64,000 nucleotides of DNA from Rhodococcus zopfii NBRC 100606 = JCM 9919 (lineage in GTDB: Bacteria > Actinomycetota > Actinomycetes > Mycobacteriales > Mycobacteriaceae). A model generated the notes under the pieces. That model was given only the letters and a program-made list of their open reading frames with translations, did not search any database and had not been told where the DNA came from. Both the position numbers and the translations under genes were made by a program. Every line of letters begins with the position of its first letter. Positions within the stretch are counted from its first letter, which is position 1. The stretch is from contig NZ_BCXI01000001.1 of the NCBI RefSeq assembly GCF_001895025.1, forward strand, positions 186,001-250,000, in the 5' to 3' direction. Shown here piece by piece: positions 11,297 to 22,255 of the stretch.

Positions 11297-12787
11297 ATGC
11301 GCATGCCCATGTCGCCGACCGATTCGATGTTCCTCCTCGGAGAGTCCCGTGACCGCCCCATGCATGTGGGCGGCCTGATCCTTCTACAGCCCCGCGAGGG
11401 CACGACCGTCGCCGATCTGGTCGCGCTGTTCACCGCCTCGGTCCGCGACGGGAACACCGATCCGCTGTGGCGTAAACGAGCGGTGCGGTCACTCGGGACG
11501 CTCGGCCAGTGGGCCTGGGAGGAAGACCGGGACTTCACGCTGTCCTACCACGTGCGCCGCAATGCGCTGCCGCGACCCGGCGGCCTCGACGAGCTGTGGG
11601 ATCTGGTTTCCCGGCTTCACAGCACACCACTCGACCGGAACCGGCCCCTGTGGCAGATGCACGTCATCGAGGGCCTCGCCGACGGTCGCCTGGCCGTCTA
11701 CACCAAGATCCATCACGCGCTCGCCGACGGAGTCGGCGCAATGAAGCTGCTGCGCCGGGCCCTGAGCCCGGACCCGGCGCGCACCGGCATGCCCGCGCCG
11801 TGGGAATCGATCGATATCCCGAGCCGCACGCACACCGCCGAGACCGCGCTCGGGCTCCCAGAGGCGGCGCTGCAGACCGTGCGAGCAGCCGCCGGGGAGG
11901 CGCTCGGTCTCGTTCCCGCCCTCGTCGGCACGGTGGACCGTGCGCTGCACGGCCGGGGCGGATCGCTGTCGCTCGCCGCACCCAACACCATGATCAACGT
12001 GCCCATCACCGGAACCCGCCGGTTCGCCGCCCGGTCGTGGCCGCTCGAACGGCTGCGCGCGGTTGCGAAAGCAGCCGACGTCACCGTCAACGATGTCGTG
12101 CTCGCCATGTCGTCGGGGACCCTCCGTGCGTTTCTGAACGATCACCACGAACTGCCCGACAAGCCGCTCGTCGCCATGGTGCCGGTGTGCCTGCGTCGCG
12201 ACAAGGACTGCTCGGGCAACGAACTCGGCGTCCTGATGTGCAATCTGGCCACCGACGTCGCGAACCCGGCGGACCGGCTCGCGGCGGTGTCCGCGTCGAT
12301 GGTTCAGGGCAAGGATGCGATGCACGGCATGTCCACGCTGTCCCGGCTCGCGACCAGCGCACTCGGCGTCGCCCCGCTCGCGGTGGGAATGCTCACCAGG
12401 AACCGGGCCCTGCCGCGACCACCGTTCAATGTGATCGTCTCGAACGTGCCGGGACCGGCGCACCCGCTGTACTGGAACGGCGCGCGCGTGGACGCGGTCT
12501 ATCCGCTGTCCGTTCCCGTCGACGGCCAAGCCCTGAACATCACCTGCACGAGCACCGACGACGCCATCGCCTTCGGTCTGACCTCGTGCAGCCGGAGTCT
12601 GCCGGACCTGCAACCGCTGCTCGATCACCTCGACGACGCCCTCGGCGCCCTCGAATGCGCCTACGATCTGGCACCTCGGCCGAGCGCGGCCACGGCCACC
12701 GTCGACCACCTGCCCGGCCGCGGGAACCCGGCGGGGAACCGACCCGCGCGAGGCGTGCCGGCAGCGGCACCCGCGCACGCGGGTTAG
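11297..12787 (+). CDS. WS/DGAT wax ester synthase/diacylglycerol O-acyltransferase
   Basis: A 496-residue member of the actinobacterial WS/DGAT family, which esterifies diacylglycerol or fatty alcohols with acyl-CoA for storage lipid. The N terminus MSPTDSMFLLGESRDRPMHV is family-typical. The active-site motif HHALADG (HHxxxDG) lies at about residue 140, after RPLWQMHVIEGL (the PLW motif). FNVIVSNVPGP near residue 380 is the conserved ND/NVPG block. I start at ATG 11297, after GGAGGA; MPMSP or MSPTD a few codons later are equally possible. Neutral-lipid storage through several such enzymes is typical of Rhodococcus and relatives. Confidence 0.9.
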   Translation: MRMPMSPTDSMFLLGESRDRPMHVGGLILLQPREGTTVADLVALFTASVRDGNTDPLWRKRAVRSLGTLGQWAWEEDRDFTLSYHVRRNALPRPGGLDELWDLVSRLHSTPLDRNRPLWQMHVIEGLADGRLAVYTKIHHALADGVGAMKLLRRALSPDPARTGMPAPWESIDIPSRTHTAETALGLPEAALQTVRAAAGEALGLVPALVGTVDRALHGRGGSLSLAAPNTMINVPITGTRRFAARSWPLERLRAVAKAADVTVNDVVLAMSSGTLRAFLNDHHELPDKPLVAMVPVCLRRDKDCSGNELGVLMCNLATDVANPADRLAAVSASMVQGKDAMHGMSTLSRLATSALGVAPLAVGMLTRNRALPRPPFNVIVSNVPGPAHPLYWNGARVDAVYPLSVPVDGQALNITCTSTDDAIAFGLTSCSRSLPDLQPLLDHLDDALGALECAYDLAPRPSAATATVDHLPGRGNPAGNRPARGVPAAAPAHAG

Positions 12788-13113
12788 CCCCGACGCCGGC
12801 GAGTTCGCGAACGATCGTGCCGCGGCCGGAGCTTCGCGACGCCGGGAGCGGGCACCCGCATGGGCCCCTGCTGTGGAATCGGTGGGACGAGCCGGCCGCG
12901 ATGTGCGGGTGCGTCGACCGGGACCACTGCCGGATCGGGAATGCGCGCCGGCGCCGAATCTGTGCCGGCGCGTCGGGTTCGTGACGGCGCCCCGCCGCGG
13001 CGCGCTCGTACGCGGGGGCCGTGGCTGATCGGGCGGCGGTTTCGTGGTCCCCCGGCTCGACACGGCCGGCGGGTGATGCGGGTGCGGTGCCTCGGTCCGC
13101 CTACCCTGTCACG
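12788..13113. other. Gene-free stretch before the SMC operon
   Basis: GC-rich DNA without a supported gene. Frames on both strands are Arg/Pro/Gly-rich and end without a domain. It presumably holds the jetA promoter. I see no jetD-like coding sequence and no clear terminator for the acyltransferase gene. Confidence 0.5.
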
Positions 13114-14631
13114 GTGAGTGAAACAGTGCAGTCCCACCCCGGCAGGGTCGAGGACCCGAGCGCGCGGGGTGAGCGGCTGCGGCTGTTCTCGTTCGCGACC
13201 GCGGAGAAGCGCACCGAATATCTGTGGGTGCTGCGGGCGTTCGACCATGCCCGCGCCAACTATGTGGTGTTGCTGCATGCCGGGGAGGTCGCATCGATCC
13301 TGGGGCGGATCGGCGGGGACGATCCGGCGGCGTCGTTGTCGGCGCAGGAGGTCACGCCGCTGCTCGAACAGCTGCACGTGTGGGGTCTGCTCGAGCGGAG
13401 CTACGACGGGACGCGGGCGGCGACACTCGCCGAATACCGGAACCGGCATTTTGTGTATCAGTTCACCCGGCCTGGCTATCACGCGTTCCGCGCGGTGGAG
13501 GACGTGCTGAGCAGCCGCGGGGAGGATGCGTCGCTTTCGCGCCTGGCGTTGGCGGATCTGCTGGCGGATCTGACCGATCTGGCCGCGGCGAACGCGGCCG
13601 GGGACGGCGAGCTGATCATCCGGAAGCTGATGCGGCTCGACGCGACGTTGTCGGACATGGCGGAGCGGGCGGCCCGGTTCTATCTCGTGCTCGGTGACCT
13701 GGTGCGGACCACGGAGATCACCCCCGAGACGTTCCTCGCGCACAAGGATGCGTTGCTGTCGCACATGCGCGAATTCAGTTCGGATCTGGCGCGGTTCGCG
13801 CCGAAGCTGACCGCCGCGCTCGAGCACGTGCAGGGCACCGGCGTCGAGCGATTGCTGGCGCGGGCCGCGGCGCACGACGAACGGGTCCTGTTGCCGATCG
13901 CGGAGCGGGAGGCGGACTGGCGGTCGCGGTGGCGCGGCATCGAGCACTGGTTCGTCGGGGTGGGGTCGGCGCCGAGCGAAGCCGATCGGCTGCGGGAGGG
14001 CACGATGAGCGCGATCGCGGCGGTGCTGGCGTTGTTGCGGCGGGTCACCGAGACCCGCAAGGGCGGGGTGAGCCGGGAGTCGCAGCTGCGGCATCTGGCG
14101 GGCTGGTTCGCGGCGGCCCCGAGTGAGGAGGCCGCGCACGCCCTGTTCGGGGCGGTGTTCGATCTCGGCCGGCCGCGGCATTTCGCGATGCCGCACGCGG
14201 ATGCGGAGGCCGTGCCGATCGGACTGTCGTGGTGGGAGGCCCCGCCCGTGGAGATCTCCCGGACCCTCGCGGAGACCGGCCGCGCCCCGTCGGCGGGTGC
14301 GCCGGGCAAGGTGGTCCGCAACGAGTCCGGAATCCGCCGGTTGCGGGAGGTGCAGCTGGAGGCGCAGCGTCGGCGTGCGGAGGCCGCGGCGTCGCTGGCC
14401 GCCGGTGGGGTGTGGGAGCGGGAATTGTCGGAGTCGGAGACCGAGGTGTTGTTGGGCCTGCTGGATGCGGCGCTGTCGGCGCGGGTGCCCGTCAGTGCGC
14501 AGGTGCGCGGTCCGGCGACGGGGTCGGGGAACGGGGTGACGTTGACGTTGACACCGAGCGCGGAGTCGATGGTGGTGCACACGGCGCGGGGCCGGTTGCA
14601 TCTGGACGGGCTGTCGGTGGACGTGCGGTGA
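13114..14631 (+). CDS. jetA: JetA-like subunit (TIGR02677, DUF2397) of a type II Wadjet SMC system
   Basis: A 505-residue protein of the TIGR02677 family, the kleisin-like subunit that bridges the SMC heads in type II Wadjet. The N terminus has the family-typical FSFATAEKRTEYLWVLRAFDHA and winged-helix-like segments. The middle has IIRKLMRLDATLSDMAERAARFY, and the end holds a long Arg/Glu/Ala helix (RLREVQLEAQRRRAEAAASL). GTG 13114 is chosen because homology begins there; the upstream in-frame stretch is low-complexity. It shares GTGA with jetB, so the two are coupled. Wadjet complexes recognise and cleave plasmids, but here the nuclease gene is missing. Confidence 0.85.
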   Translation: MSETVQSHPGRVEDPSARGERLRLFSFATAEKRTEYLWVLRAFDHARANYVVLLHAGEVASILGRIGGDDPAASLSAQEVTPLLEQLHVWGLLERSYDGTRAATLAEYRNRHFVYQFTRPGYHAFRAVEDVLSSRGEDASLSRLALADLLADLTDLAAANAAGDGELIIRKLMRLDATLSDMAERAARFYLVLGDLVRTTEITPETFLAHKDALLSHMREFSSDLARFAPKLTAALEHVQGTGVERLLARAAAHDERVLLPIAEREADWRSRWRGIEHWFVGVGSAPSEADRLREGTMSAIAAVLALLRRVTETRKGGVSRESQLRHLAGWFAAAPSEEAAHALFGAVFDLGRPRHFAMPHADAEAVPIGLSWWEAPPVEISRTLAETGRAPSAGAPGKVVRNESGIRRLREVQLEAQRRRAEAAASLAAGGVWERELSESETEVLLGLLDAALSARVPVSAQVRGPATGSGNGVTLTLTPSAESMVVHTARGRLHLDGLSVDVR

Positions 14632-16043
14632 GGGCGCGGAGTATTCCGTCGCTCGAGTTGGATTCGTTCCAGCGGGCGGTGCGGTTGATTCTCACGCATC
14701 ATCTGGTGACGGTGTCGTATCCGGATCCGAATGCGCTGCCGTTGGTGCGGCGGTGGGCGACGGAGTTGCGCACGGATCTGCTCGAGGCGTTCGGATACCG
14801 CCTCGAGGTGACCGAGACGACGGCCCGGTTGTTCACCGTCGCCGATCGGCTCGACCCGGGGGCGGGCACGTCGACGGTGTCGGACCGGCCGTTCGATCGG
14901 CGCCGGTACGCGTATCTCGCGTTGGCGCTGGCGGCGTTGGGGCGGGCCGGCAACCAGATCAGCCTCTCCGAGCTGGCCGAGCATGTGGCGGCGGAGGCGA
15001 CGCAGGTCGACGGGGTGGAGCTGGCGGCGGATCGGGCCGCGGATCGGGACGCGTTCGTCGATGCGGTGGCGTGGTTGTGTGCGCGGGGTGCGATCACCCT
15101 GGCCGACGGGGATGCCGGCCGGTGGGCGTCGGATCCGGAGGTCGGTGAGGCGCTGTACGACATCGACCGGGCGGTGGTGACGGCGCTGTTCCGGCCGCCG
15201 CGGGTGCTGCAGCATCTGCGGTCGGTGCGCGGGCTGCTGGCCGCCGGTGACGGCGTTGGCGATCCGGAGCGCACGGTCGGGACCGCGGAGATCGCGCGGC
15301 GGGTCCGGCGGGCGCTGGTGCAGCGGCCGGTGCTGTACGCGGAGGAGCTGGACGACGCGGAGGCGTTGCAGTTGGCGTTGCCGCGCACCGCGGCGGACGT
15401 CGAGTTGCTGACCGGTCTGGTCGCCGAACGCCGCGCCGAGGGTGTGGCGCTGGTGGATTCGTCGGGCCGCCTGTCGGATGTGCGGTTCCCCGGCACCGGG
15501 TCGGTGGCGCAGTTGGCGCTGCTGCTGGCCGGGGAAATCAGTGCCCGGGTGCTCGAGGCAGGGGTGCTCGAGGCAGGGGTGCTCGAGGCCGGTGGCGCCG
15601 GGTTGCTGCAGGTGCCGTTGCCGCCGGATCGGCACGATGCGCTGGTGACGGCGGTGGACGCCGCGATCCCGGAGGCGGGGGTGTTCGCGGCGCTCGCCGT
15701 CGAGGACCCGGCGGTTCCCGAGCCTGCAGGGGTGGACCGGGCCGAGGAGCGGCCGGCGGCACTGCATCCATTGATCGAGGACGGGTGGCTGGCCTCGACG
15801 GTCGGGCAGCTCGTCGACGCGTACGGGCGGACGTTCGCGGCGCAGTGGCAGGCCGATCCGGCCGGGTTGGCGGCGGCCGCGCTGGATCTGCTGGAGAAGC
15901 TGCGGCTGGTGGTGCGGGTGCCCGGTGGGGTGCTGGTGTTGCCGGCGTTGGCGCGGTTCCGCGGGGTGACGGTCACCGTCCGGGAGCGGGACCCGCAGAT
16001 CGATCTGTATCCGGGAGACTCGAGCGAGGCGGAGTTGTCATGA
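14628..16043 (+). CDS. jetB: JetB-like subunit (TIGR02678, DUF2398) of a type II Wadjet SMC system
   Basis: A 471-residue protein of the TIGR02678 family, the winged-helix KITE-like subunit of type II Wadjet. Recognisable stretches are ELDSFQRAVRLILTHHLVTV near the start, RRRYAYLALALAALGRAGNQ near residue 90, and ARFRGVTVTVRERDPQIDLY at the end. The start is the GTG inside the GTGA shared with jetA. Its stop shares ATGA with jetC. Residues about 308-322 are three copies of a five-residue unit (VLEAG) from a 15-bp tandem repeat, probably a length-variable loop. Confidence 0.85.
   Translation: MRARSIPSLELDSFQRAVRLILTHHLVTVSYPDPNALPLVRRWATELRTDLLEAFGYRLEVTETTARLFTVADRLDPGAGTSTVSDRPFDRRRYAYLALALAALGRAGNQISLSELAEHVAAEATQVDGVELAADRAADRDAFVDAVAWLCARGAITLADGDAGRWASDPEVGEALYDIDRAVVTALFRPPRVLQHLRSVRGLLAAGDGVGDPERTVGTAEIARRVRRALVQRPVLYAEELDDAEALQLALPRTAADVELLTGLVAERRAEGVALVDSSGRLSDVRFPGTGSVAQLALLLAGEISARVLEAGVLEAGVLEAGGAGLLQVPLPPDRHDALVTAVDAAIPEAGVFAALAVEDPAVPEPAGVDRAEERPAALHPLIEDGWLASTVGQLVDAYGRTFAAQWQADPAGLAAAALDLLEKLRLVVRVPGGVLVLPALARFRGVTVTVRERDPQIDLYPGDSSEAELS
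15549..15593 (+). repeat. 15-bp in-frame tandem repeat inside jetB
   Basis: GTGCTCGAGGCAGGG occurs twice, followed by a third, slightly diverged copy. Each encodes VLEAG, so copy changes keep the frame. Confidence 0.9.
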
Positions 16044-19000
16044 GCAGTGCCCGTTTCCGGCCGACACGGGCCGGGATCATCAACCTGTGGGACTACCGGG
16101 ACCAGGAGTTCTCGTTCGCCGACGGACGGCTGGTGCTGCGCGGCCCGAACGGGTCGGGCAAGACGAAGGCGCTCGAGGTGCTGTTCCCGTTCGTGTTCGA
16201 CGGCCGGATCGAGCCGCGCCGGTTGAATCCGTTCGCCGGTGAGGAACGCACCATGCGCTCGAACCTGCTCTATCGCGGGCAGGACAGCGCGTATTCGTAT
16301 GTATGGATGGAGTTCTGCCGCGGCGACCGCGACGATCCGGAGGCCGTGACAGTCGGGATCGGGATGCGCGCGACGCGCGGCAACGACAAGGTCACCCGCT
16401 GGTATTTCGTCGTCGACGGCCGGGTGGGTGTCGACTTCTCGCTGCTCGACGCCGAGGATCGGCCGCTGACGCGCAGGCAGTTGATCGACGAGGTCGGCGC
16501 GGATGCGGTGGTGGATCGGCCGGTGGACTACCGGGCGGCAATCGATGCGCGGCTGTTCGGGCTCGGCGCGCAGCGCTACGACCAATTGATCAATCTGATC
16601 CTGACGTTGCGGCGGCCGCAGCTCGCGAAGAATCTCGACCCGAAGGGGTTGTCGCAGGCGTTGACCGACGGGCTGCGGCCCCTCGACGACCAGCTGGTGC
16701 TCGAGGCGGCCCGCTCGTTCTCCGACATGGAGGAGGTCGCGCGGGTCCTCGAGTCACTGTCGGCGGCGGACGAGGCGGCGCAGCGTTTCGTCACCGTGTA
16801 TGGGAAGTATCTGCGGCAGCAGGCCCGCGCGGACGTCGAGCAGGTCGCGACGCGGCTGGCGGCGGTCGACGCCGGGATCGAGGCGCTGCACGGCGCGGCG
16901 GCGGATCGGCTGCACGCCGGGACCGATCGCGCCGCCGTCGAGCAGCAGCTCGCCGACACCGAGCGGGAACTCGAGCAGGCCCGCGCGAATCTCGAGGCGC
17001 TGCAACGGTCCAGCGCCTACGAGGGCAAGCAGCAGCTCGACGATCTCGCGCAGGCCGTCGCAAACCTCGAGCGCACCACGATCGCGCAGGCCGAGCAGGC
17101 CCGTCGGGCGCAGGCCACGCTCGCGCAGCGCACCGAGGAGACCGAACGGGCGTCGGCGGCGGTGACGACGGCGGTGGCGACGCTCGCGCGCGGCGAGGCG
17201 GTGCTCGCCGCGGCCGCGGAGGATGCCGGGATCGTCTGGGCGGCACCGCAACCGGACGCGCGCCCGGAGCAGGTGGCGACGGTGATCGACGCGCACGTGA
17301 CCGAACGGGAAGCCGACGTGCAGGCGGTGCGCTCGGCGCTGTCGCGGGTCGAGGGTGCCGCGTCGGCGCGGAGCCGGGCCGAGTCGTCGGCGCAGCGTGG
17401 CCGTGCCCAGCTCGACACCGCGCGGGCCGCGGTGGAGGCGTCGGAGACGATGGTCGAGCTCGCTCGCGCCGAGACGGCGAACCAGCTGCGCGCGTGGTGG
17501 GGTGAGCACGGCGACGAGTACTCGGCAGCCGGTGTCGCGGGCGGTCTGCTCAGCGTGCTCGACGCGGCGATCGCGCGGGCCGGGGACGACGATGCGCCGG
17601 CGCCGGCGGTGGTGCTCACCGCGCACGCCGGGTCCGCGGTGGAGGAATTGAGGTTCCGGCGGCGGTCGTGCGCGGCGGACGCGGAGGCGCTCGAGGCGCG
17701 GATCGTCGAACTCGAGTCGGAGCGGGCGGCGATCGCGGCCGAACACGACGACGCTCCCCCGCCGTTCGCGGCCCGGACCGGTGACCGCACGGAATTGCCC
17801 GGGGCACCATTGTGGCGGCTGGTGCGGTTCGCGGACGACATCAGGCCGGAGGCCGCTGCCGGGATCGAGGCGGCGTTGGAGGCGGCGAACCTGCTGGACG
17901 GCTGGGTGCTCGACGCACCGGCGTGCGAGATGTCGTTGCCGAACACCGAATCGGAGCAGTTCCTCGAGCCGCTTCCGGCGCAGCAGCGTCCCACCGGTCC
18001 GACCTTGGCCGACCTGCTGGTCGCCGAACCGGACGCCGGTGTCGCCGAGCAGCGGGTGCGGGATCTGCTCGCGTCGATCGCGTCGACCCCGGCGGACGCG
18101 TCGGTCACTGTGGCCGTCGACACCGAGGGCCGGTTCCGGCAGGGCGTGCAGGTGGGGCGCCATGTCAAGGCCCAGGCGGAGTTCATCGGGACGACCGCAC
18201 GCGCGCGGCGCCGGCAGAGCCGGATCGCCGACCTGGACGCGATGATCGCCGAGGCCCGCGCCGCGGTGGAGGCGCTGGGCGCGGACCGGCAGCGGCTCGG
18301 GGACCAGTTGACGCGGCTCGAGCGGGCGGCTGCGGCGTTGCCGCGCACCGGCACCGTGTCGGCGGCGTTGCGGAAGGTCACCGAGTGCGCCGGCGCGTTG
18401 CGGACCGCGACGGACTCGGCCGCGGCGGCGGACCGCGACCTCGATCAGGCGTTGGCCGAGTATGCGGCGCGGGAGCAGCAGGTGCGGGCCGCGGCGGCCG
18501 CGCACCGCGCCCCGCACACCGCGCGGGAACTCGATGCGGTGGCCGCGGCGATCCGGCATTTCCAGTCGCAGGGTCAGGCGCTGCTGCGGGCCCGGCGGGA
18601 GCACACCGCCGAACTCGAGCGGGCGCGGGACGCGGCGGTCCGACGGGACGAGGCACGCCGCGCCGCCGAGGAGTCGGCGGAGCAGGCGGCGGTCGCCGAG
18701 GAGTCGCTGACGACGCAGCAGCAGCGCCTCGAGACGCTGCGGGATGCCCTCGGCGCCTCGGCCGAACAGATCGACGAGCAGCTCGAGCAGGCGCGGGAGC
18801 GGATCGAGGCGGCGAAGGCGGCGCAGCGCACCGCCCGCAAGTCCTACGACGGGGCGATCGAGCGGATCGGCAAGGCGGAGGCGGCGCACACGGCGGCCGA
18901 GCAGGCGCTGCGCTCGGCGCTGGTGGAGGCCCTGGCCGATGCCGAGCACCTGGCCCCGTATGCGCGGCCGGAACTGTTGGGCCTGTTGAGGATCGAGCAG

Positions 19001-20209
19001 CCGCACGCGTGGCCGGCGGGGCCCGCGGCGTGGCTCGGCGCCGACCAGTTGGTGTATCGGATCCAACGCGACACCGGCGGTGACGTGCCGGTGCTGCCGC
19101 CGGAGGTGTCGGCGCTGTTCGCGTCGCTGCTGGCGGCGACGGAGTCGGTGACGGTGTCCGAGTCGGCGCGCAAGTCGACGCGCACCGCGCTGACAACGGC
19201 GTTGCAGGAGTTCGATGCGCAGCTGGCGGCGGCCGGGCAGGACTACCGGCTGCAGTGGGACGCCCCGGACGGGGTGACCGTGGTGCGGGTGCAGGACGAG
19301 CGGGGATTCTCGTCGGTCGGGCAGTTCGCAACCCGGATCGCCGCCGCGCGCCGCGAGCAGGAACTGCTGCTCACCGACGCCGAGCGTCGCATCCTCGAGG
19401 ACGCGTTGCTGACCGGGCTGGCGCAGCAGATCCACGAACGCACCGTCGACGCCCGCGCCCTGATCGCCCGGATGGCCACCGAGATGCGCAAGCGGCACAT
19501 GTCGTCGGGCAACACGATCGGGGTGCACTGGGCGCTGGCTGATCACCTCGACGACAGGTCGCGGGCGGTGTGCCGGTTGCTGGATCGGGATGCGTCGGCG
19601 TTGGGTGCGGACGAACTCGCCGACGTGCGAGCGCATTTCGCGGCGCAGATCCGCGCCGAGCGGGCGGCGCACCCGGAGCGGTCGTACCCGGAGATCCTCG
19701 CGACCACGCTGGACTACCGCCGCTGGCGGGTGTTCTCGTTCAGCCTGATCTCCGCGGACGGCACCGAGGACCGGTTGACGGTCGCGCGGCATTCGGCGTT
19801 GTCCGGTGGTGAGCAGTCGGTGTCGCTGCACCTGCCGTTGTTCGCCGCCGCGCACGTGATGCTGGACTCGGCGGATCCGCACGCGCCGCGGCTGCTGGCG
19901 TTGGACGAGGCGTTCGCCGGTGTCGACGACACCGGCCGCAGCGAGCTGCTGAGCCTGTGTGTGCAGTTCGACCTGGATCTGTTCATGACCGGGTTCGACC
20001 TGTGGATCACCTACGCCGGGGTGCCGGGGTGCGCGCACTACGACCTGGCGCATTCGGTGGCCGAGCACACGGTCGCGGCGACGCTGCTGGTGTGGTCGAG
20101 CGGGGATCTGCTGGCCGAGCACAGCGGCTCGGATCTGGCCGCGGCCCTGGGGTCGCCGGGCACGCGGCGGGTGCTCGCGCCGGTGGAGGGGTCGCTCGAG
20201 TTCGCCTGA
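16040..20209 (+). CDS. jetC: JetC-like SMC ATPase (TIGR02680) of a type II Wadjet SMC system
   Basis: A 1389-residue SMC-type ATPase. Walker A is GPNGSGKT at residues 35-42. Two long coiled-coil arms run from about 250 to 560 and 740 to 1010, around a central hinge region. The ABC signature LSGGEQ is at about 1255, and Walker B with catalytic Glu (LLALDEAFAG) at about 1285. All ATPase motifs are intact, so the motor should work. The family extrudes DNA loops with JetA and JetB. The stop is at 20209 and the next gene is thiC on the other strand 138 bases on, so there is no jetD. The protein looks full length. Confidence 0.9.
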   Translation: MSSARFRPTRAGIINLWDYRDQEFSFADGRLVLRGPNGSGKTKALEVLFPFVFDGRIEPRRLNPFAGEERTMRSNLLYRGQDSAYSYVWMEFCRGDRDDPEAVTVGIGMRATRGNDKVTRWYFVVDGRVGVDFSLLDAEDRPLTRRQLIDEVGADAVVDRPVDYRAAIDARLFGLGAQRYDQLINLILTLRRPQLAKNLDPKGLSQALTDGLRPLDDQLVLEAARSFSDMEEVARVLESLSAADEAAQRFVTVYGKYLRQQARADVEQVATRLAAVDAGIEALHGAAADRLHAGTDRAAVEQQLADTERELEQARANLEALQRSSAYEGKQQLDDLAQAVANLERTTIAQAEQARRAQATLAQRTEETERASAAVTTAVATLARGEAVLAAAAEDAGIVWAAPQPDARPEQVATVIDAHVTEREADVQAVRSALSRVEGAASARSRAESSAQRGRAQLDTARAAVEASETMVELARAETANQLRAWWGEHGDEYSAAGVAGGLLSVLDAAIARAGDDDAPAPAVVLTAHAGSAVEELRFRRRSCAADAEALEARIVELESERAAIAAEHDDAPPPFAARTGDRTELPGAPLWRLVRFADDIRPEAAAGIEAALEAANLLDGWVLDAPACEMSLPNTESEQFLEPLPAQQRPTGPTLADLLVAEPDAGVAEQRVRDLLASIASTPADASVTVAVDTEGRFRQGVQVGRHVKAQAEFIGTTARARRRQSRIADLDAMIAEARAAVEALGADRQRLGDQLTRLERAAAALPRTGTVSAALRKVTECAGALRTATDSAAAADRDLDQALAEYAAREQQVRAAAAAHRAPHTARELDAVAAAIRHFQSQGQALLRARREHTAELERARDAAVRRDEARRAAEESAEQAAVAEESLTTQQQRLETLRDALGASAEQIDEQLEQARERIEAAKAAQRTARKSYDGAIERIGKAEAAHTAAEQALRSALVEALADAEHLAPYARPELLGLLRIEQPHAWPAGPAAWLGADQLVYRIQRDTGGDVPVLPPEVSALFASLLAATESVTVSESARKSTRTALTTALQEFDAQLAAAGQDYRLQWDAPDGVTVVRVQDERGFSSVGQFATRIAAARREQELLLTDAERRILEDALLTGLAQQIHERTVDARALIARMATEMRKRHMSSGNTIGVHWALADHLDDRSRAVCRLLDRDASALGADELADVRAHFAAQIRAERAAHPERSYPEILATTLDYRRWRVFSFSLISADGTEDRLTVARHSALSGGEQSVSLHLPLFAAAHVMLDSADPHAPRLLALDEAFAGVDDTGRSELLSLCVQFDLDLFMTGFDLWITYAGVPGCAHYDLAHSVAEHTVAATLLVWSSGDLLAEHSGSDLAAALGSPGTRRVLAPVEGSLEFA

Positions 20210-20292
20210 CCCTCGAGTTCACCCGGCCACTGCACCCGCTCTCCCCCGCTCTCCGCACCGGCAACCCCAGCCCGCCGATGGTCCACACCCTT

Positions 20293-20315
20293 CGGGTGAT
20301 GGCGGCCATCACCCG
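20293..20315. terminator. Hairpin between the convergent jetC and thiC genes
   Basis: A 10-bp perfect stem (CGGGTGATGG with CCATCACCCG) and a 3-base loop. It has no long U-run, which is common for actinobacterial hairpin terminators. It could serve both strands. Confidence 0.55.
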
Positions 20316-20347
20316 GCCTGACCGGGCGTTGCCTCGGCTCACCCGGG

Positions 20348-22108
<1,761 letters not shown>

Positions 22109-22255
22109 TTGTCGAGTTGTCGCGTGGAACCGTATCAGCGTCGGCAGTTTTCGCAACCCGAGCGCATCGGCCCCGGGGAACCGGCGCCGATCGAACGCCG
22201 GTCACCGGCCGATATTCGATTGTCGGGCGACAGTGGCGGCTGCTTGGATCGGGCC

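Follow-up and report, generated by a model that had tools for sequence, protein, structure and literature searches.

Type II Wadjet systems normally comprise four genes, jetABCD, in which JetD is the toprim-like nuclease that cuts plasmids. The operon jetA-jetB-jetC described here lies at positions 13114-20209 of the window, i.e., the whole stretch of 64,000 nucleotides analyzed from Rhodococcus zopfii NBRC 100606 = JCM 9919 (contig NZ_BCXI01000001.1, positions 186,001 to 250,000). It shares with type II Wadjet full-length JetA, JetB, and JetC in the usual order and with overlapping ends; however, the cutting subunit, JetD, was not found in this genome. Passages of a review describe JetABCD as a shape-sensing endonuclease, whose cleavage requires ATP and a working JetC ATPase, with JetABC taken as the part that confers shape sensing (PMC10586767). 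In the absence of JetD, what can remain is the loading of DNA and the extrusion of loops. We propose, with moderate confidence and from sequence comparison, that the locus encodes a type II Wadjet motor without a nuclease, which would be retained and work without cleavage, most likely as a condensin acting on the chromosome.

The MksBEF complex of Pseudomonas aeruginosa is also MukB-like and built of three subunits, no nuclease being known for either system, and it stands beside a canonical Smc, which the R. zopfii genome encodes as well; in an excerpt of one report, MksBEF is assumed to organize the chromosome (PMC7083940). MksBEFG of Corynebacterium glutamicum is likewise an actinobacterial SMC-like complex, but it is of type I and carries the nuclease MksG, and according to excerpts of two reports, plasmids are affected by it but the organization of the chromosome is not (PMC7083940, PMC10123090). 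The window JetC scores 1423 bits against the PADLOC model JetC2 versus 58 bits against the best JetC1 (type I) model, the JetC1 models of PADLOC being taken here as proxies for the MksB family. Since the sequence is that of a type II JetABC, the window system is to be regarded as an analogue of MksBEF rather than a member of it. The PDB entries 9qe0/9qe1 provide the only solved-structure match for JetC (233 bits) and JetA (64 bits), and the relationship is distant. Judging from titles and abstract openings, no published description of a nuclease-free type II Wadjet was found; Table 4 of one report lists a three-protein Wadjet_II among the phage defence systems of Rhodococcus erythropolis NI86/21 (PMC12915292), as predicted by the three-gene relatives of the R. 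erythropolis group found here; the passage says nothing of an absent nuclease.

The jetABC operon and the search for JetD

All three genes lie on the forward strand. The kleisin-like subunit (DUF2397, JetA2) is encoded by jetA (13114-14631; 505 residues), which begins with GTG and has alternative in-frame starts upstream at 13087 and 13021. The KITE-like subunit (DUF2398, JetB2) is encoded by jetB (14628-16043; 471 residues), which overlaps jetA at GTGA, and the SMC/MukB-like ATPase (JetC2) by jetC (16040-20209; 1389 residues), which overlaps jetB at ATGA. JetA matches TIGR02677 with 250 bits (cut-off 165.85), PF09660 with 472 bits, and PADLOC JetA2 with 610 bits, and JetB matches TIGR02678 with 135.7 bits (cut-off 124.65), PF09661 with 221 bits, and PADLOC JetB2 with 672 bits. 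JetC reaches 727.7 bits against TIGR02680 (cut-off 462.85), and its JetC2 match extends over residues 2-1365; the JetA2, JetB2, and JetC2 profiles are covered almost end to end.

The ATPase motifs of JetC are complete and are shared with the 80 relatives sampled below. The Walker A motif GPNGSGKT (residues 35-42; 16142-16165, forward strand) is invariant in the JetC alignment and present in all 80 relatives. The ABC signature LSGGEQ (residues 1254-1259; 19799-19816, forward strand) is kept as LSGGE, and the Walker B motif LLALDEAF (residues 1285-1292; 19892-19915, forward strand), at which PF13558 also matches, as LDEAF, each in 79 of the 80; in the remaining relative, JetC is cut by a contig end. 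The translations and family cut-offs thus bear out the initial annotation, which had read the three genes as overlapping and full length with intact ATPase motifs, and the JetA, JetB, and JetC families and the JetC motifs of type II Wadjet are all present.

The toprim nuclease JetD (DUF2399/TIGR02679) of type II Wadjet, on the other hand, was found neither in the operon nor in the genome. Behind jetC, a gap of 138 bases without strand assignment (20210-20347) occupies the site at which jetD would be expected from relatives with four genes, and no jetD remnant was found in it. It is followed on the minus strand by the convergent neighbor thiC (20348-22000; NF006763, 890 bits), which lies outside the system and was likewise correctly placed by the initial annotation. 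Across the whole genome (6.30 Mb in 146 contigs, rated 100% complete), PF09983, TIGR02679, PF09664, and a 13-row JetD alignment all remained without a match. TIGR02679 and PF09664 each matched in none of 14 control genomes; because TIGR02679 matched in no control genome, its negative proves nothing, and the negative for JetD rests on PF09664 and the alignment, since both detect JetD in two genomes of the same genus (G011 and G010). In the JetD families searched, the earlier claim of jetABC without jetD therefore holds for the gap, the window, and the whole genome, while the alternative that it raised, a JetD encoded elsewhere, is not supported by the genome-wide searches.

A jetC orthologue was found in all 18 genomes of the genus, being partial or in pieces in three of them (G003, G004, and G010), and JetD in two, the other 16 showing no match to PF09664 or the JetD alignment. 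In G011, jetD is intact and begins approximately 26 bases after jetC. The jetD of G010 is broken across frames, as is its jetC (locus L038, 6-2921); since jetC is split too and the assembly is 75% complete, the split jetD may represent sequence error rather than decay. The contig of G004 ends within jetC, so that the genome-wide searches carry the negative for JetD there. Open reading frames (ORFs) of 389-475 residues without Pfam or PADLOC match behind jetC in G005, G006, and G016 were considered as divergent JetDs and rejected. Those of G005 and G006 match the JetD ORF of G011 over the first ~61 residues only, which correspond to the jetC overlap read in another frame, and the remainder of the ORFs forms one family, distinct from JetD, with, on our reading, a signal-like start. 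A recent loss of jetD at the 3' end, as had also been suggested, is not supported because 15 of the 17 remaining genomes in this genus lack JetD as well.

Distribution and history of jetD

Relatives were found with two peptide patterns in a genome collection, of which the best 80 of 178 were taken, all belonging to Rhodococcus, Rhodococcoides, Prescottella, Antrihabitans, or Nocardia; the JetC of Rhodococcus sp. HM1 is 92% identical to that of the window. Upstream of jetC, jetB is present in all 80 loci and jetA in 78, the exceptions being L092 and L119, where a contig edge intervenes. Of the 78 loci that can be assessed, 16 carry JetD behind jetC, and the JetD profile shows no remnant in the rest; the two others (L110, with 477 bases behind jetC, and L123, with none) hold too little sequence to judge. 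In all 16 four-gene loci, jetD follows jetC immediately, starting between 3 bases before and 26 bases after the jetC end as judged by alignment edges. Among 201 genomes sampled from the family, this jetB occurs in 76 (in pieces in three: G065, G189, and G197): 12 have a linked PF09664 JetD, five have a JetD elsewhere only, and 59 have no PF09664 match. JetA of the window type is found in 50 of 59 Nocardia genomes (genus g23) and in 26 of the 28 from genus g24, to which R. tibetensis and R. wratislaviensis belong. The three-gene jetABC is the usual form in the sampled Rhodococcus and Nocardia, and the comparison of related strains proposed earlier thus reveals a widespread three-gene form beside a minority with four genes.

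The history of the operon was traced on a quick JetC tree of 87 rows, from which L123 was excluded and on which all change counts rest. Its rows cluster for the most part according to the named genera, but not throughout; Rhodococcoides corynebacterioides (L127), for example, falls apart from R. fascians. Vertical inheritance of the operon on the chromosome is supported by these sequences but not proven. Outside the family, the closest relatives detected lie on Streptomyces linear plasmids (seven records, JetC 47-51% identical), in all of which the JetD profile places jetD behind jetC; in two of these plasmids, TIGR02677, 02678, and 02680 are annotated together with a gene of TIGR02679 or DUF2399, and transposases surround them. 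Of the 25 records matched among 72,556 plasmid records, none comes from Rhodococcus or Nocardia, and JetA has no phage match. The possibility of a mobile island was considered for the operon and is disfavored for Rhodococcus and Nocardia by the JetC tree, the plasmid search, and the neighborhood.

In the JetD tree, the JetDs of the Streptomyces plasmids are sister to a clade of Nocardiaceae JetDs (union 100/100, Nocardiaceae clade 95/95), and five JetDs of other lineages fall outside this union; the tree used 10 of the 17 JetDs of the window JetC lineage, and the tree tool warns of long branches. Over 120 pairs, JetC and JetD distances correlate with r 0.96, a value reached in none of 5000 permutations, with near copies dominating. 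Because the Streptomyces-plasmid lineage has jetD, the JetD clades are sisters, and the distances of the two proteins correlate, jetD was very probably ancestral, though this is supported rather than proven, and was very probably lost more than once. Sister rows of the JetC tree differ in jetD (L082 vs L106 and L055 vs L056), from which it follows that jetD came or went more than once; jetD is, for example, present in Rhodococcoides kyotonense JCM 23211 and lacking in KB10.

These data also bear on the opposite polarity, a three-gene ancestor in which the three-gene complex would be the original state and jetD was gained several times. The fewest changes on the JetC tree number five versus 16 losses under a strict single origin, the correlation of JetC and JetD distances between far lineages alone is weak (r 0.46, 9 pairs), and the JetD tree, in conflict with that of JetC, unites SMB37 with Antrihabitans (93/90), so that some transfer of jetD is likely. 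We nevertheless consider this explanation quite improbable, as the JetDs beside this JetC lineage form a single clade, next to which the tree places the JetDs of its sister lineage from Streptomyces plasmids, the distances correlate over the 120 pairs, and jetD is positioned directly behind jetC in all 16 four-gene loci. With an ancestral jetD, it is conceivable, as a tentative proposal, that a plasmid-cutting Wadjet became a housekeeping loop-extruding condensin of Rhodococcus and Nocardia through repeated independent loss of its nuclease.

Selection, genomic context, and the proposed function

Pairwise ratios of nonsynonymous to synonymous rates (omega, dN/dS) were obtained by the Nei-Gojobori method, which is crude at low dS. 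JetC omega ranges from 0.03 to 0.16 in 12 three-gene pairs (median 0.099) and from 0.058 to 0.077 in five four-gene pairs (median 0.061), and it reaches 0.23 in one three-gene pair of a second pair set; across all three-gene pairs and genes measured, omega does not exceed 0.26. The difference between the two forms is not significant, either raw (p 0.19) or with omega scaled to neighboring genes (p 0.48; 11 three-gene and 7 four-gene pairs), where the controls are one to five genes per pair, the pairs are few and some share a member, and one three-gene pair with an infinite ratio (control dN zero) was kept in the rank test. The mixed sister pairs L082/L106 and L055/L056, with JetC omega of 0.071 and 0.160, were placed in neither group. 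The three-gene operon is under purifying selection, and the codon-level comparison agrees with the earlier view that its intact frames argue against simple decay, with no significant relaxation of selection. A Wadjet decaying after the loss of jetD could draw on the absence of the gene, the higher three-gene median, and the split jetD of G010, with its possible sequence error. It is nonetheless highly improbable, since the frames are intact across Rhodococcus and Nocardia; the ATPase motifs are kept in every JetC of the best 80 that is not cut by a contig end, and omega stays low in all three-gene pairs without differing significantly from that of four-gene pairs.

In the proposed mechanism, the motor would consist of the JetA kleisin, the JetB KITE subunit, and the JetC SMC ATPase, with JetD having been lost. 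Judging by homology, JetABC would still bind DNA and extrude loops with ATP, while the final step, in which circular DNA is passed to JetD for cutting, would be missing, and the outcome would be compaction or bridging of DNA instead of its cleavage. The likeliest target would be the host chromosome, beside the canonical Smc, as has been proposed for MksBEF without MksG; in effect, a defence system would have been domesticated into a condensin.

The surroundings of the operon, in which neighbor genes were called by a crude GC-based gene caller, are in part those of core genes. A gene that resembles the proteasome assembly chaperone family weakly, at a score under the cut-off, lies upstream in 43 of the 80 loci, and at least one of mshC, TIGR03847, MSMEG_4193, and uppP lies downstream in 36; housekeeping neighbors are found on both sides in 21 loci and on at least one side in 58. 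A promoter and terminator scan of 12600-22200 found none and is uninformative in such GC-rich DNA. As a separate observation, one gene family occurs within three genes upstream of jetA, on the same strand, in 24 loci (directly upstream in 17); it is present in L086 (2646-3878) and other Nocardia loci, and its L116 member matches a model of the NsdA-family TPR-like regulators.

Several points weigh against a chromosomal condensin. The action of JetABC on the chromosome is something that we infer from homology. The housekeeping place is no proof of a chromosomal role because loci with jetD show it no less often (14 of 16) than loci lacking the gene (44 of 64), and one Rhodococcoides clade keeps jetD in 13 of its 14 rows. 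In the genus of the window, the loci lie mostly outside the conserved neighborhood, the R. ruber locus being beside mshC. The ratio of JetC omega to that of neighboring genes is 1.6-6 in three-gene pairs and 1.5-3 in four-gene pairs, and a JetC omega above that of its neighbors is what a defence protein might show. Finally, the JetB N-terminus, which contacts JetD in type I according to a passage of the review (PMC10586767), looks by eye equally conserved with and without JetD, so that another partner of JetB is possible.

The last of these points leads to a nuclease unlike JetD, encoded elsewhere and recruited in trans by JetABC. Such a swapped partner would explain the JetB conservation, and the searches of the R. 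zopfii genome covered the JetD families alone. No gene adjoining the operon is common to the three-gene genomes, however, and no specific candidate was found. A same-strand gene follows within 150 bases of jetC in 8 of 62 three-gene loci, and these genes fall into seven different clusters. Four clusters have a Pfam match (alcohol dehydrogenase, homocysteine methyltransferase, methyltransferase, and transcriptional activator), none of them a nuclease, and two have none (that of L057, scanned via its G016 copy, and that of L104, via L093); no replacement effector adjoining jetC was seen among the clusters scanned, i.e., all of the seven but that of L124 (154 residues). We therefore regard a nuclease acting in trans as improbable.

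The elevated JetC omega relative to housekeeping neighbors is also compatible with plasmid control without cleavage, in which JetABC would load on small circular DNA and compact or silence it, lowering copy number or establishment. JetABC is homologous to plasmid-acting systems, and the four-gene form of the lineage resides on Streptomyces plasmids. Against this, deletion of mksG in the type I system of C. glutamicum affected pBHK18 copy number like deletion of mksB, according to an excerpt of the report (PMC10123090), which argues that the nuclease is needed there, and defence systems are not usually spread so broadly over species within a core context. Plasmid control without cleavage is thus unlikely, and we retain the chromosomal condensin as the preferred explanation.

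Related jetABC sets and implications

Further type II sets were observed alongside the lineage of the window. A second, distant jetABC, approximately 30% identical and assigned to type II by PADLOC, is present in the same genome (C19:59717-66440; L034, 3718-10441); it is also without JetD, and a gene for an AMP-binding enzyme comes after it. Its JetC carries the signature ISQGE and the Walker B motif LDDAF, and because both are shared by the JetD-bearing operons L134 and L135, they mark a lineage. A third type II JetABC lineage occurs in g14, another genus of the family (L142, 6544-13962; L144, 5100-12701; L146, 5080-12346), where no JetD was found in the stretches examined or by PF09664. In the Nocardia (g23) operons L137 (756-8907), L147 (4477-12641), and L148 (3085-11170), a jetD-like gene comes first, upstream of jetA.

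For surveys of defence systems, the three-gene form affects how counts are to be read. Extracts of one survey report Wadjet in 42% of Actinobacteria, and Wadjet together with a restriction-modification system and either Eleos or PD-T4-3 in 73% of Rhodococcus genomes (PMC10482375). Part of the surveyed Wadjets may be nuclease-free and unable to cut plasmids by the known route.

Passages of the review treat it as unresolved how Wadjet arose and how it is related to other SMC complexes, and speculate that MukBEF and MksBEF may have a past as defence systems (PMC10586767). The JetABC lineage of the window exists in both states, with four genes on Streptomyces plasmids and in some Nocardiaceae and with three genes in most of the sampled Rhodococcus and Nocardia. 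Since both states occur and sister rows differ in jetD, the question of a passage from defence to condensin becomes experimentally testable. In most of the sampled Rhodococcus and Nocardia, our analysis suggests, a defence apparatus has been put to a different use, probably on the chromosome; if true, this lineage would be a present-day case of a return from immunity to chromosome organization, a path already suggested for MukBEF and MksBEF.

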